Assembly (NCBI GenBank): GCA_021792135.1
Contig: JAJYVF010000001.1
Coordinates: 186,001-250,000 of the forward strand
Direction: 5' to 3'
Source of the DNA: Acidobacteriota bacterium
GTDB taxonomy: Bacteria; Acidobacteriota; Terriglobia; Terriglobales; Acidobacteriaceae
Length of the DNA: 64,000 bases
Shown: positions 50,046 through 55,336 of the stretch, piece by piece
How positions within the stretch are numbered: the first letter of the stretch is position 1
Layout of the letters: each line of letters starts with the position of its first letter
Position numbers and translations under genes: made by a program
The notes under the pieces: model-generated
Told to the model about the DNA's origin: nothing
The model's database searches: none
The model's input: the letters and a program-made list of their open reading frames with translations, nothing else

Positions 50046-51374
50046 ATGATGCGTACGAGTACGGGGTATTGGAAGCTTTCACTGAGGACGGGCGCGGCGG
50101 CAGCGCTCGCAGTCTGCCTCTGGATTCCGGCGGGAAGCCTGGCGTGGGCCCAGGGTACGACAGCCGAGCCGCAGCAGGGCGCGCAGTCCGACGGGGACAT
50201 CCAGTCGCAGGTAGCGAACGCGCTGGCCCGCGATCCCGCCCTCCAGAACCAGCAGGTCAGGGCCTATACCTCGAACGGGATCGTGACCCTGACCGGCACC
50301 GTGCAGACGGAGCAGCAGCGGCAGGAGGCGGAGACCGTAGCTGCCGGGGTGCCGGGGGTGAGCGGTATCGAGAACGATCTGAATGTGACGGAGACTGCCA
50401 ATCAGGGGCAGAACCCACCGCCGCCGCCGGCGACGAGCCAGCCGGAGCAGGTACCACCGTCGCCCGATGCCGAGCAGGTACCGCCGCCGCCCGATGCCGG
50501 GCAGGTACCCGCGCCGCCCGACGCCGGGCAGGTACCGTCGCCGCCCGATGCCGGGCAGGTACCGCCGCCGCCCGACGCCGGGCAGGCGCCCGCGCCAGCC
50601 AGCCCGGAGCAGGTTCCTCCTCCGCCGCCGCCCGACCAGGTAACACCGCAGGCGCAGTACCCTCAGCAGGGCGGCAGTGGACAGTATCCCGGGCAGCCAG
50701 GATACAACTCTCCGGTCAGCGGGCCGGTCACGATCCCGGCAGGAACGCTGCTGCAGGTTCGCACCAGCGATGCGCTGGACCTGAGCCAGCTGCAGGATGG
50801 GGCCAGTTTCCAGGGGACGGCGGCAAGCGACGTGTTTGAGGGCAACGTGCTGGCCATCCCGCGGGGAGCGGTCGTCGAGGGCACGGTCGTTCATGTGAAG
50901 AAGCCGGGCGCGCTGGGCGGCGCCGGCGAGCTGCAGCTGCAGGTCACGGCGGTGGATCTGGGGGGCAGGGCCTATCCGGTGAACACCGATATCTGGTCGA
51001 GCCAGAGCAGGAGCAAGACCGGCTACACGGCGACGAATACGGTCGGCGGAGCGCTGCTTGGAGCACTCATCGGCGGCCTGCTGGGGCGGGGGCCGGGCGT
51101 GGCGGCTGGCGCGCTGGTCGGGGGCGTAGGGGGGATGGCGGCCTCGGCAGCGACCCACGGACCCGGGCAGGGTCTTCCGGCGGAAACGCTGCTGAACTTC
51201 CACCTGACCCGCGCGGCCTCGGTGCAGCCGGTTTCCTGGCAGGAAGCGCAACAGCTGGCACAGAACGCGCCGCGCCTGCAGCGGAGAACGGTGTACATGA
51301 CACCGTATCCCTATCCTTATGCTTACTCCTATCCGTATCCGTATTACCCGTATCGGATGTATTACGGCTGGTAA
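50046..51374 (+). CDS. Exported BON-domain protein with Pro-rich repeats and glycine zipper
   Basis: 442 residues. Signal peptide to about residue 36 (SLAWAQ), BON domain at about 48-115 (SQVANALARDPALQNQQVRAYT ... VTLTGTVQTEQQRQE), then five 9-residue units QVPxPPDAG and a further Pro/Gln linker, a domain starting VTIPAGTLLQVRTSDALDL, a glycine-zipper segment (GGALLGALIGGLLGRGPGVAAGALVGGVGG), and a Tyr/Pro-rich tail (YPYPYAYSYPYPYYPY). The second half is paralogous to the lipoprotein at 59104. The BON domain and zipper suggest membrane association in the periplasm. Function unknown. Confidence 0.78.
   Translation: MMRTSTGYWKLSLRTGAAAALAVCLWIPAGSLAWAQGTTAEPQQGAQSDGDIQSQVANALARDPALQNQQVRAYTSNGIVTLTGTVQTEQQRQEAETVAAGVPGVSGIENDLNVTETANQGQNPPPPPATSQPEQVPPSPDAEQVPPPPDAGQVPAPPDAGQVPSPPDAGQVPPPPDAGQAPAPASPEQVPPPPPPDQVTPQAQYPQQGGSGQYPGQPGYNSPVSGPVTIPAGTLLQVRTSDALDLSQLQDGASFQGTAASDVFEGNVLAIPRGAVVEGTVVHVKKPGALGGAGELQLQVTAVDLGGRAYPVNTDIWSSQSRSKTGYTATNTVGGALLGALIGGLLGRGPGVAAGALVGGVGGMAASAATHGPGQGLPAETLLNFHLTRAASVQPVSWQEAQQLAQNAPRLQRRTVYMTPYPYPYAYSYPYPYYPYRMYYGW
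50445..50579 (+). repeat. Five 27-bp tandem repeats encoding QVPxPPDA units
   Basis: Five in-frame 27-bp copies starting at 50445, 50472, 50499, 50526 and 50553, each containing CAGGTACC and CCGCCCGA. They encode the Pro-rich linker of the BON protein. Near-identity at DNA level, including silent sites, suggests recent expansion. Confidence 0.85.
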
Positions 51375-52403: not shown

Positions 52404-52529
52404 GTTGCGGCTGGGATCCTGGGAAAAAATTTCGTTAGGCTCTGAGCCCGGTGTCCTGTTTTCAGCGGGTTAGCGGAGGCGGTATCCCTGGACCTCGGCG
52501 AAGTGTCTGATTCGGGGTCAGATCCAGCT

Positions 52530-52721
52530 CGGCCGCGTCTGCTGCAGAGTCGGCTGAGATTGCCGCAGGCCCGGCCGTCTTCGCTTCCGATGACAGGAAA
52601 CCCATCAGTTGCCACTCGGCCGAGTTTGCATCAGCTTCGGCCGAGTTTGCGGGGGACTCGGCCGAGGTTGGATCACTCACGGCTGAGTCTGAGTCAGCCC
52701 CGGCCGAGTTTGCCGGCGAGG
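52530..52721. repeat. Eight 21-bp-spaced palindromic cores (CGGCCGAG)
   Basis: Cores resembling CGGCCGAG start at 52530, 52551, 52572, then after a 24-bp insertion at 52617, 52638, 52659, 52680 and 52701: exactly 21 bp apart inside each block. The best copies extend to the palindrome CTCGGCCGAG and are followed by TTTGC. 21 bp is two helical turns, so protein bound to each core would sit on the same DNA face. It would also give heptapeptide repeats (SAEADAN-like on the minus strand) if translated, but the only frame starts inside a terminator hairpin. Confidence 0.8.
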
Positions 52722-52742
52722 AGTTTTCAAAAAGCGCAGAAA

Positions 52743-52760
52743 GTGCGGCCTGGGCCGCAC
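52743..52760. terminator. 8-bp perfect hairpin GTGCGGCC/GGCCGCAC
   Basis: Stem of 8 bp around two bases, seven bases before the larger hairpin at 52767. On the plus strand AAGGAAAAAG follows it. Together they form a strong double hairpin bordering the repeat array. Confidence 0.4.
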
Positions 52761-52766
52761 AAGGAA

Positions 52767-52801
52767 AAAGCTCCATTCGCGACGAGGCTGAATGGAGCTT
52801 T
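52767..52801. terminator. 12-bp perfect hairpin, likely bidirectional terminator
   Basis: AAAGCTCCATTC and GAATGGAGCTTT pair without mismatch around an 11-base loop. On the minus strand a run TTTTTCC follows; on the plus strand CCTTATTT follows. A typical bidirectional intrinsic terminator; it lies 3 bp from the stop of a minus-strand open frame (52804-53061). Confidence 0.75.
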
Positions 52802-53188
52802 CCTTATTTGTCAGCGTAGGCGCTGCGGAGAGCGGGAGCAAGTGAAATCGGAGCCCTGGACGGTACGGAGGTAACGGGATGGGTAGAGCGGTCCCGCCCC
52901 GACGGAGGCCAGGGAGATTTCGGAACCGTGAAAGATCGGCCGCTCGGCTTCCAATGAGCGCTCGATATCGGAGCGATGTAGAAGCGACATGACTGCGCTT
53001 CGAATTGGGCTGGGATTATTGACATCCGGGGCTTTGCTGACTGGCAGGCTCCGCTCGCCACTGCGAGGATGCTACACGGCGCAGAGCGCGAGTGCGCTAT
53101 TGAGACATGGGCTAGCTGCGCTGCTCGTTAAGCGCGTTTCTGAAGGAAAGATTCAGGTGGGTGAGGGCGGACGAAAGATCGCCTGGGA

Positions 53189-53389
53189 CTACCGGAATAC
53201 TCCGTAGCTCGGCACAGAAATCGCCTTCGGCCCGAGATTACGAAGTGCAGCCGTATTCTCCGGTGCCGTGAAGAAGCTATTGATCGTAATCGTACCGGCG
53301 AGGGAGGGGGCCGTTGATTCGCACTCGTACGGGCTCGCTCCGTGGACTTCCACGCGCCGAATCTCGTCTTGATTGATCACCTTTTCCAT
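53189..53389 (-). CDS. Small hypothetical protein, 66 aa
   Basis: MEKVINQDEIRRVEVHGASP, then YECESTAPSLAGTITINSFF and TAPENTAALRNLGPK. Normal amino-acid composition, unlike chance frames in this GC-rich DNA, and AGGGG eight bases before the ATG. It lies downstream of the SDH-type proteinase on the same strand, with that gene's terminator between them, and in AT-richer DNA. No family recognised; possibly an accessory partner or unrelated cargo. Confidence 0.4.
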   Translation of the reverse strand: MEKVINQDEIRRVEVHGASPYECESTAPSLAGTITINSFFTAPENTAALRNLGPKAISVPSYGVFR

Positions 53390-53460
53390 ACAATCGCCCC
53401 TATCATCTTAAATGGATGGCTATTCTATCGGATCGTTTCGGAGAAATTTTAAATAAAATC

Positions 53461-53490
53461 AAAAAAACTTAAGTCCAATGGAATCATTGG
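53461..53490 (-). terminator. Intrinsic terminator after the SDH-type proteinase
   Basis: On the minus strand CCAATG-ATTC-CATTGG (6-bp stem, 4-base loop) followed by ACTTAAG and then seven T. It begins 12 bp after the stop at 53503. The seven-base gap between stem and T-run is wider than ideal. Confidence 0.5.
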
Positions 53491-53502
53491 CCTACAGGAA
53501 AG

Positions 53503-54612
53503 TCAATCCACCTTCCTCCAGCCAGATTCAGACTCCACGATGTTGACCTTAACTTCCCCGGGAGCTTGGTACCACGCAGAGATTGTGCCCTTTGCACGAG
53601 CCTCCGACGCACACCGCGTGCTCTCACATACGGCTGCAATCAGTTCGTAGGATACCTGCACAGCCCCGTTAGCTGCATTTTGCACGAGTTGATTCACAAC
53701 CGCACCCCAAACCTGTTGGGCAACGCCGAGGGGAGCATTCGCAGGTAACGGTACTGGCGCGATTGGCTGCAGTGTCGCGGCCGCGCTCGGGTCTGCCAAG
53801 AAAACCTGCAGCGGCGAAAACGGCCGCCTAAGTTCCATGAGGGATTCGAGGCCGGAGTAAGCCTGCCACATGAGCTTTTCAAGAGCGGGGTCACTGTCCG
53901 CGATTTTGAGTTGAAGTTCCTTCGCCCTTCCTCTGGATACCGCGTCACCATGAGCAAAGAAGGCTTTGTTCAGGTTCTCTGCGATCTGTCGCGCCCGTCC
54001 GTTGTCGTCCTCGCCCTTCATGTGCATGTGAAGGAGACGTTCCCCTATGTCAGCAGAAAGTTCGCTCGCGCGCTTCGCGGCCCCAATGTTCAAGGGGTCA
54101 GCGACCTGAAATAGCCGTTCCACCACAGACGAGATGTGAGCCTGTTCCGATATTTGAACATCAGACTCTAGAAAGCGCAGGAAGGCTCCCACATCTTCGT
54201 AAGCAAAGACACGGACCGTGCCGTCTGCTTGGCGCATCTGGATTTGAGGATCAATCGGCCCTAACGACGCGTGAGGGTGCATGAAGATCTGGTCTGCACC
54301 GAGCGAGAAGATCGTCGCTGCGCTGAAGGCCATGTATGGCACGAGAACCGATACATCCGTGAATCGCTCGCGAAGCAGCGACATGAGCTTCCAAGCGGTG
54401 AGCGGATCGCCTCCGGTGCTGTGAATCAGCACGTCAACTGCGGCGCCATCGGGCACTGCGTTAACCTGATCGACAAATTCTCGGACAACGTCAGCAGCCA
54501 TCATCGCGTTGACGCCTGCGCGTGTCGAGGTCGCGTAAACGATCAATGGTCGCTTTCGGTATTCTTCGATTTGCTTGTAGAACTCTCGCCTTTGAGCAAG
54601 GTCCACCGGCAC
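53503..54612 (-). CDS. SDH-type Clp-fold serine proteinase
   Basis: 369-residue protein of the serine dehydrogenase-type proteinase family (SppA/Clp fold, PF01972-like). Evidence: VDVLIHSTGGDPLTAWKL (63-76), a nucleophile-region YMAFSAATIFSLGADQI with Ser97, and MHPHASLGPIDPQIQM (111-126), the family's DPHAVLGPVDPQ motif. No signal peptide or membrane helix, so soluble, probably oligomeric. Start GTG at 54612. The DNA is visibly less GC-rich than its neighbours and codon choice differs (many AAG/GCA/TTC-poor stretches), and it lies beside a broken toxin-antitoxin pair, both consistent with horizontal gain. Substrate unknown. Confidence 0.83.
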   Translation of the reverse strand: MPVDLAQRREFYKQIEEYRKRPLIVYATSTRAGVNAMMAADVVREFVDQVNAVPDGAAVDVLIHSTGGDPLTAWKLMSLLRERFTDVSVLVPYMAFSAATIFSLGADQIFMHPHASLGPIDPQIQMRQADGTVRVFAYEDVGAFLRFLESDVQISEQAHISSVVERLFQVADPLNIGAAKRASELSADIGERLLHMHMKGEDDNGRARQIAENLNKAFFAHGDAVSRGRAKELQLKIADSDPALEKLMWQAYSGLESLMELRRPFSPLQVFLADPSAAATLQPIAPVPLPANAPLGVAQQVWGAVVNQLVQNAANGAVQVSYELIAAVCESTRCASEARAKGTISAWYQAPGEVKVNIVESESGWRKVD

Positions 54613-54957
54613 GCACCTGTGTCCTGACGGCTAAGGGGTAAGCGTCAGGATGGATGGAAAACAGAAATAAGCATACGCGAAGCCGCGGCGGTTGGAGCAT
54701 CAACCGAAGGGGGTATGACAGGATGCGAAAAGTTGCTTCGGAGGTCTGGGCAATCTGGGGACAGACGGGGAGTTCCCCATCCTAACTGACGCAGACCGCA
54801 ATCTGTACCCGAAAACGGGCATCGATCAATATTTCCGCGCGGGCAACATCGGCGCGGATCAGCGAAGGCCGCATCTGACATTGTCGCTACGACCCTCACA
54901 GAGGGGGATGCGAGGGATGACTTGCCGCGGATCGACCGATGGGTCACAATGTGACAC
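54613..54957. other. Intergenic region of the accessory island
   Basis: 345 bp between the divergent proteinase and antitoxin genes. I see only a small inverted repeat, GGGGAGTTCCCC, at 54767-54778 and no convincing frame or promoter. Confidence 0.4.
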
Positions 54958-55206
54958 ATGAAGACGATCACCATCCGCGAACTCCACGAGGCCACTGGAC
55001 GATGGGTTCGGCAGGCACAGGCCGGAGAGGTCTATGTGACGAAAGGCGGACAGCTGATCGCCAAAATCGTCCCGGCGTCGCCTCCCCCGGCACAGCCATT
55101 TTTCGCCAGTCCCGCCTGGACGCGGGCCTTCCTTCGGGAACGCAGCCGGCTGCGGGGCGGAACCGACTCAACCGAAATCATCGGTGAAGACCGCGAAGTC
55201 CGGTGA
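54958..55206 (+). CDS. Phd/YefM-type antitoxin
   Basis: 82-residue antitoxin of the prevent-host-death family. The N-terminus MKTITIRELHEATGRWVRQA followed by GEVYVTKGGQLIAKIVP is the DNA-binding Phd fold; the C-terminal disordered part would wrap the toxin. TGA overlaps the GTG of the PIN-toxin fragment (GTGA), the standard TA arrangement. Antitoxins of this type repress their own promoter. The cognate toxin is truncated (next entry), so this antitoxin appears orphaned. Confidence 0.85.
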   Translation: MKTITIRELHEATGRWVRQAQAGEVYVTKGGQLIAKIVPASPPPAQPFFASPAWTRAFLRERSRLRGGTDSTEIIGEDREVR

Positions 55207-55334
55207 TCTACTTCGATAGCAGCTACCTCGTCCGGCTCTATTACCAGGATCCGGGCGCCGATGCGGGTGTCGCTCGCAAGATGGAAGCAACGGGAGCTGA
55301 AAGTGCCAGCGCACCATTGGCGCGGGCCCAGTAA
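55203..55334 (+). pseudogene. Truncated PIN-domain (VapC-like) toxin
   Basis: Begins at the antitoxin stop: VIYFDSSYLVRLYYQDPGAD, the N-terminal strand and first catalytic Asp (D5) of a PIN ribonuclease. After 43 codons (ending SAPLARAQ) a TAA stops it, whereas PIN toxins need about 130 residues and three further acidic residues. The stop comes three bases before the end of the convergent NtrX-like gene, so the rest seems deleted. Not expected to be active. Confidence 0.7.
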
Positions 55335-55336
55335 CA

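Follow-up and report, generated by a model that had tools for sequence, protein, structure and literature searches.

The series of short palindromes at 52528-52708 of the window (the whole 64,000-nucleotide stretch analysed here) raises the question of whether it is a local binding site for a protein, the by-product of a coding repeat or a part of some larger unit. The eight palindromic cores described in the initial annotation, three in one block and five in another with an exact spacing of 21 bp, are borne out: boxes of 10 bp start at 52528, 52549 and 52570 and, in the second block, at 52615, 52636, 52657, 52678 and 52699, with a pitch of exactly 21 inside both blocks. The step between the blocks is 45 (2x21+3), and hence they are out of register with each other. 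The best cores are, as had been claimed, full palindromes, with two of the eight boxes being perfect copies of CTCGGCCGAG and the remaining ones departing from it by 1-3 bases. The lag-21 autocorrelation (identity) of 0.48 was matched by none of 2000 dinucleotide shuffles at any lag of 15-59. Array 2 was also scored by Tandem Repeats Finder, and six units were recovered by a separate repeat search. The hairpin on the right is likewise genuine, with perfect 12-bp arms at 52767-52778 and 52790-52801, and the minus-strand ORF at 52462-52776 (104 aa) is present with its ATG, as noted earlier, inside the hairpin. The recognisable parts of the locus are the following:

52450..52475, plus strand: left-end motif, GGTGTCCTGTTTTCAGCGGGTTAGC; family form GGTGACTTGTTTTCAGCGGGTTAGC, with 60+ copies aligned; profile match from 52451 (L001 1552)
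52506..52527, plus strand: pre-array motif, TGANTNNNNGTCAGNTNC, which recurs in the linker
52528..52579, plus strand: array 1, three boxes at pitch 21, with in-register conservation in other copies
52580..52614, plus strand: conserved linker, GATGACAGGAAACCCATCAGTTGC; family form TGATTGAAAGNGAGTCAGTTGC
52615..52708, plus strand: array 2, five boxes at pitch 21
52646..52656, plus strand: specialised spacer between boxes 5 and 6, TTTGCGGGGGA; family form TTTGACGGGGA, position-specific in most copies
52767..52801, no strand assigned: stem-loop with perfect 12-bp arms, flanked by A and T runs, common to copy L003
52802..52890, no strand assigned: degenerate promoter-like right end, a 10/16 match to TGATATTCTGAACTTA, resembling L003
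52462..52776, minus strand: open frame A (SAE heptads), 104 aa, without a ribosome site and with its ATG inside the hairpin

A BLAST comparison of the region with its own genome recovered further loci at 67-76% identity, and a pattern search added more; a profile (R1) built from nine copies finds 13-15 copies in this 5.1-Mb genome. The distribution was surveyed with profile searches of 60 relatives, 49 of them from outside the genus. Many copies are present in six other genomes of the genus (G002, G004, G005, G007, G009 and G010), two weak copies in G011, and none in G001, G003, G006 and G008. Overall, the own genome and several others of the genus have 10-20 copies each. The 49 genomes outside the genus gave no credible copy, with only marginal matches at E above 1e-4. 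When 84,980 genomes of named species, a set from which the own genome and its near relatives may be missing, were scanned for the pattern, this returned three scattered single matches that look like chance, and a presence outside the genus was accordingly rejected. Among the literature abstracts listed, none fitted this family, and the one match for acidobacterial intergenic palindromes was unrelated.

A total of 63 copies align over 257 nearly gap-free columns, which run from the left-end motif (GGTGACTTGTTTTCAGCGGGTTAGC) through five boxes of array 2. The order of parts is constant in every copy, namely the left-end motif, array 1 with three boxes, a fixed linker, array 2 with 5-6 boxes, a hairpin and a promoter-like block. 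The motif TGA..GTCAGTTGC precedes array 1 and then recurs as the linker before array 2, some copies possess a sixth box in array 2, and in most, boxes 5 and 6 are separated by a GACGGG-type spacer instead of TGMNKCA. The promoter-like block to the right of the hairpin reads TGATATTCTGAACTTA on the minus strand, with its end near CTTGACA, and in intact copies the hairpin is placed between this block and the ribosome site of a minus-strand gene. The neighbours vary among copies, which adjoin unrelated genes such as lysS. The array is one module of a dispersed, genus-restricted element of about 400 bp, which in the window extends from 52450 to about 52890.

The presence of the element at individual loci was compared across the genus. 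The metallophosphoesterase gene to the left of the array was found in 11 genus genomes, and the element adjoins it only in the window genome (G000), being missing from this locus in ten other genus genomes. The distance from the metallophosphoesterase to the response-regulator gene (55337 in the window) is 23-63 bp in six relatives (L176-L180, L183) and 2.9 kb in the window. At a second locus, marked by a DUF4340-like gene identified by reading its sequence, the element is present only in the own genome, and at the lysS locus it is found in the own genome, G007 and G010 and absent from G003, G006 and G008. These differences across three loci show that copies come and go and that some have been long kept; the lysS-linked copy, which three species have in the same place, is as compatible with long retention as with spread. 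Element boundaries were placed roughly from paralogue pairs, the relatives being too diverged for base-exact empty sites. As to the surroundings, 52404-55336 forms a 2.9-kb accessory patch between the two genes separated by 23-63 bp in the six relatives; by eye, it includes, besides the array, a minus-strand ORF of roughly 370 aa (53503-54612) resembling an S49/ClpP-type protease and, near 54958-55334, what is probably a toxin-antitoxin pair. The 27-bp tandem repeat at 50441-50626 is an ordinary coding repeat, encoding a proline-rich stretch of the upstream BON-domain-like gene.

Complete copies contain a minus-strand gene between the promoter block and the array, and its protein of roughly 150-220 aa displays the motif C-x9-C-x10-C-x2-HH, a segment ISDREAGRLLRGLLRRLG and a helical domain. 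There are two strong copies of the gene in the own genome and one to three per array-rich genome; own-genome copies encoding the complete protein lie at C4:7776-8087 and C17:12462-12794. Protein matches above 140 bits are confined to exactly the seven array-rich genomes. Searches detected no family for this protein in Pfam, NCBIfam or PHROGs, nothing significant among PDB sequences and no match in phages or plasmids. The predicted model is weak (pTM 0.39, with two confident parts); Foldseek searches with it gave no match at E below 1, and VIA-align gave an uninformative Z of at most 5.8. No transposase signature was recognised with Pfam, NCBIfam and PHROGs, and the fold searches were uninformative in this respect. 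This uncharacterised protein, encoded by a small gene, is of a metal-binding type. In complete copies L007, L093, L098 and L133 its coding frame enters array 2 in frame B and ends at the linker; in L143, L147, L149, L151, L160, L162 and L167 its stop codon comes at or ahead of the array, leaving the array 3' of the gene. Complete copies of different protein subgroups carry different array unit sequences.

A further protein subfamily (MECRFTFPNGK...) is represented by L163, L164 and L153. The genes of L163 and L153 lack the 21-bp array and are followed by a GGAATCAGCAACCGTCCCGCA-like sequence, which resembles the minus-strand reading of the left end in array-bearing copies (AGAATCAATCACCATCCCGCA in L135); the 3' end may thus be common to a wider element superfamily. 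L168 (G007:C121), another member of the protein family, has a different repeat downstream of its gene, and two inserted copies of a sequence related to that repeat, at 75-79% identity, are seen in the right flank of L087.

Most copies have lost the gene and kept both ends. The comparison of L112 with L111 and L113 is illustrative: the ends and first codons match, and the gene body is absent through an internal deletion. Pairs from the same genome with closely related arrays and different outer flanks were also found, namely L083/L092 (arrays 97% identical) and L103/L109 (83%). No promoter block or ribosome site can be recognised in the window copy, and the same is true of its hairpin twin L003. 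With these parts missing, the window copy is a relic, and we do not consider the frame A ORF at 52462-52776 to be a working gene in this copy. A hairpin CCCACCCTG..GGATGGGGCACCC, which looks like an unrelated dispersed repeat, recurs in the interval between start codon and array of the gene-less copies L135, L120, L118 and L134.

One alternative explanation is that the array is primarily a coding repeat of SAE heptads on the minus strand, part of a fast-evolving low-complexity small protein, with the palindromes as a by-product and the window copy as a pseudogene. The substitution patterns argue against it. In ten close pairs the third positions of frame A change least (0.110 versus 0.137 and 0.156), and eleven pairs yield a pN/pS of 1.28 for frame A, compared with 0.76 for B and 0.83 for C. 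At two wobble positions a change between C and T would always be silent, yet one of them is fixed as T and the other as C, against a background in which comparable codons of three own-genome genes have C in 74% of cases. With third positions slowest, pN/pS at 1.28 and synonymous wobbles frozen, the constraint on the array acts at the nucleotide level. Moreover, the full genes use another frame and terminate ahead of the array or within it, and frame A has no conserved stop: it continues beyond the element, and its length varies randomly between about 88 and 638 codons. In L149, L151 and L162 the best autocorrelation lag 3' of the stop codon is 21 despite quite different units. This agrees with the earlier proposal that nucleotides and spacing rather than codons are constrained: the pitch of 21 is kept genus-wide even where the units have changed or lie past a stop, and setting the substitutions in relatives against codon positions, the check then suggested, revealed no codon-position pattern and a conserved pitch. 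Unusually fast evolution of the array, hinted at by L120/L135, was dropped as array and flanks are equally diverged in L191/L199.

The coding explanation nevertheless has evidence in its favour. Among the 28 gene-less copies with a ribosome site, counted from the copy table after removing complete genes and doubtful starts, 24 have a start-to-array distance (81-207 nt) that enters the array in the SAE frame, frame A. The binomial probability is about 1e-8 by copies and 2.5e-5 for 16 of 20 rough lineages, this being a post hoc test in which related copies are not independent. Frame A is also intact through the arrays in 24/24 ribosome-site gene-less copies as against 25/36 others (p = 0.002); L083 and L084 exemplify the gene-less copies that have a ribosome site. 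Such keeping of the frame points to translation being under selection, and a role in DNA recognition alone leaves this unexplained. The initial annotation had set the coding explanation aside; other copies lend it genuine support, and the window copy has no such start. Taken together, we regard a primarily coding origin of the repeat as unlikely.

The array had at first been interpreted as a cooperative protein-binding array or iteron-like site; on this reading it would stand alone, as an operator or iteron-like array, and act on the genes beside it. The exact two-turn pitch and the conservation at the nucleotide level are what such an array would display, but it always occurs inside the same element with fixed ends and order, its neighbours differ without a tie to any one gene, and no replication or partition genes were seen nearby. 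Nor do the boxes behave as the symmetric binding palindromes formerly envisaged: positions G4, G5, G8 and G10 are 93-96% conserved, as against 74, 84, 79 and 61% for their mirror bases C7, C6, C3 and C1, so that C1 at 61% faces G10 at 94%, and the GACGGG spacer is specialised. A simple homodimer operator would not predict such unequal conservation of the dyad halves. Thus, the array is to be viewed as a fixed module of a dispersed, gene-carrying element, and a stand-alone role appears quite improbable. A structured RNA, in which near-complementary neighbouring boxes of a plus-strand transcript fold into hairpins, could account for the excess of C-to-T changes (262) over the mirrored G-to-A changes (68), which plus-strand G-U pairing would permit, and box pairing does exceed that of slid controls. 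However, two incompatible pairing schemes tie (77.1% and 76.9% paired), as expected for repeated units, the inner pair of TGMNKCA is without covariation (p = 0.58), no Rfam covariance model matches, and the promoter-like block and gene of complete copies sit on the opposite strand. This makes an RNA fold the least probable of the explanations considered. The specific box pairs 2-3, 4-5, 6-7 and 1-8, with z of 1.7 to 3.4 in a within-genome shuffle test, were dropped as alternative schemes score equally.

Given the above observations, we think it somewhat probable that the interval from 52450 to about 52890 represents a relic of a dispersed element, restricted to the genus, whose array is read at the nucleic-acid level. 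The complete form, with one to three copies per genome, would be a minus-strand transcription unit, which begins with the promoter block, the leader hairpin and the ribosome site, continues with the gene and is completed by array 2, the linker, array 1 and the conserved end; the gene-less copies with both ends resemble non-autonomous derivatives of it. The array would most likely serve as a recognition track of two-turn spacing on which the element's own protein acts in trans, and such recognition would spread or regulate the family; in gene-less copies with a ribosome site, the array in addition preserves one open frame from the start codon, as the statistics on frame A indicate. Recognition of the array by the element's own protein, underlying its spread or control, is our leading guess, held with moderate confidence, since strong proteins co-occur with abundant arrays and the units are subgroup-specific. 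Mobility by means of this protein is putative, as no transposase signature, fold match, target-site duplication or terminal inverted repeat was established. A bolder version, which we put forward tentatively and consider rather doubtful, is a new two-part element in which each subfamily of the C..C..C..HH protein recognises its own 21-bp-pitch array, protein and unit sequence change together from one subfamily to the next, and the spread or control of gene-less copies takes place in trans.

Among known systems, the REP/REPIN sequences with their RAYT (TnpA-REP) partners are comparable in having many dispersed, mostly intergenic palindromic copies and few partner genes beside the same repeat, as outlined in the published accounts (PMC3116915, PMC8266576). 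REPINs comprise one or two short palindromes, whereas each copy here has eight or nine boxes, spaced by 21 bp and divided between two blocks, and, in contrast to RAYTs, the element protein matched no Y1 transposase in searches of Pfam, PHROGs and NCBIfam. The gene-less copies that share both ends with a complete copy (L112 versus L111/L113) recall MITEs and internally deleted insertion sequences, but here no transposase was recognised and no terminal inverted repeats or target-site duplications were established. The direct repeats at a helical-turn pitch are reminiscent of iteron and operator arrays; however, this element is dispersed in many copies, its array lies at the 3' end of the gene in complete copies, and it is not sited at an origin or the promoter of one gene. 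Iterons would be accompanied by a replication initiator gene or origin; at the window locus the neighbours are the metallophosphoesterase and other chromosomal genes.

These results add a family of dispersed repeats whose partner protein is unclassified and whose array has been kept by evolution in its spacing and not in its sequence. They also carry a warning that regular palindromes in a single sequence need not mark a local operator and can instead be left over from an element that carries a gene. Within this acidobacterial genus, the element provides a testable case of repeat-protein coevolution, as well as of the origin and persistence of gene-less derivatives.
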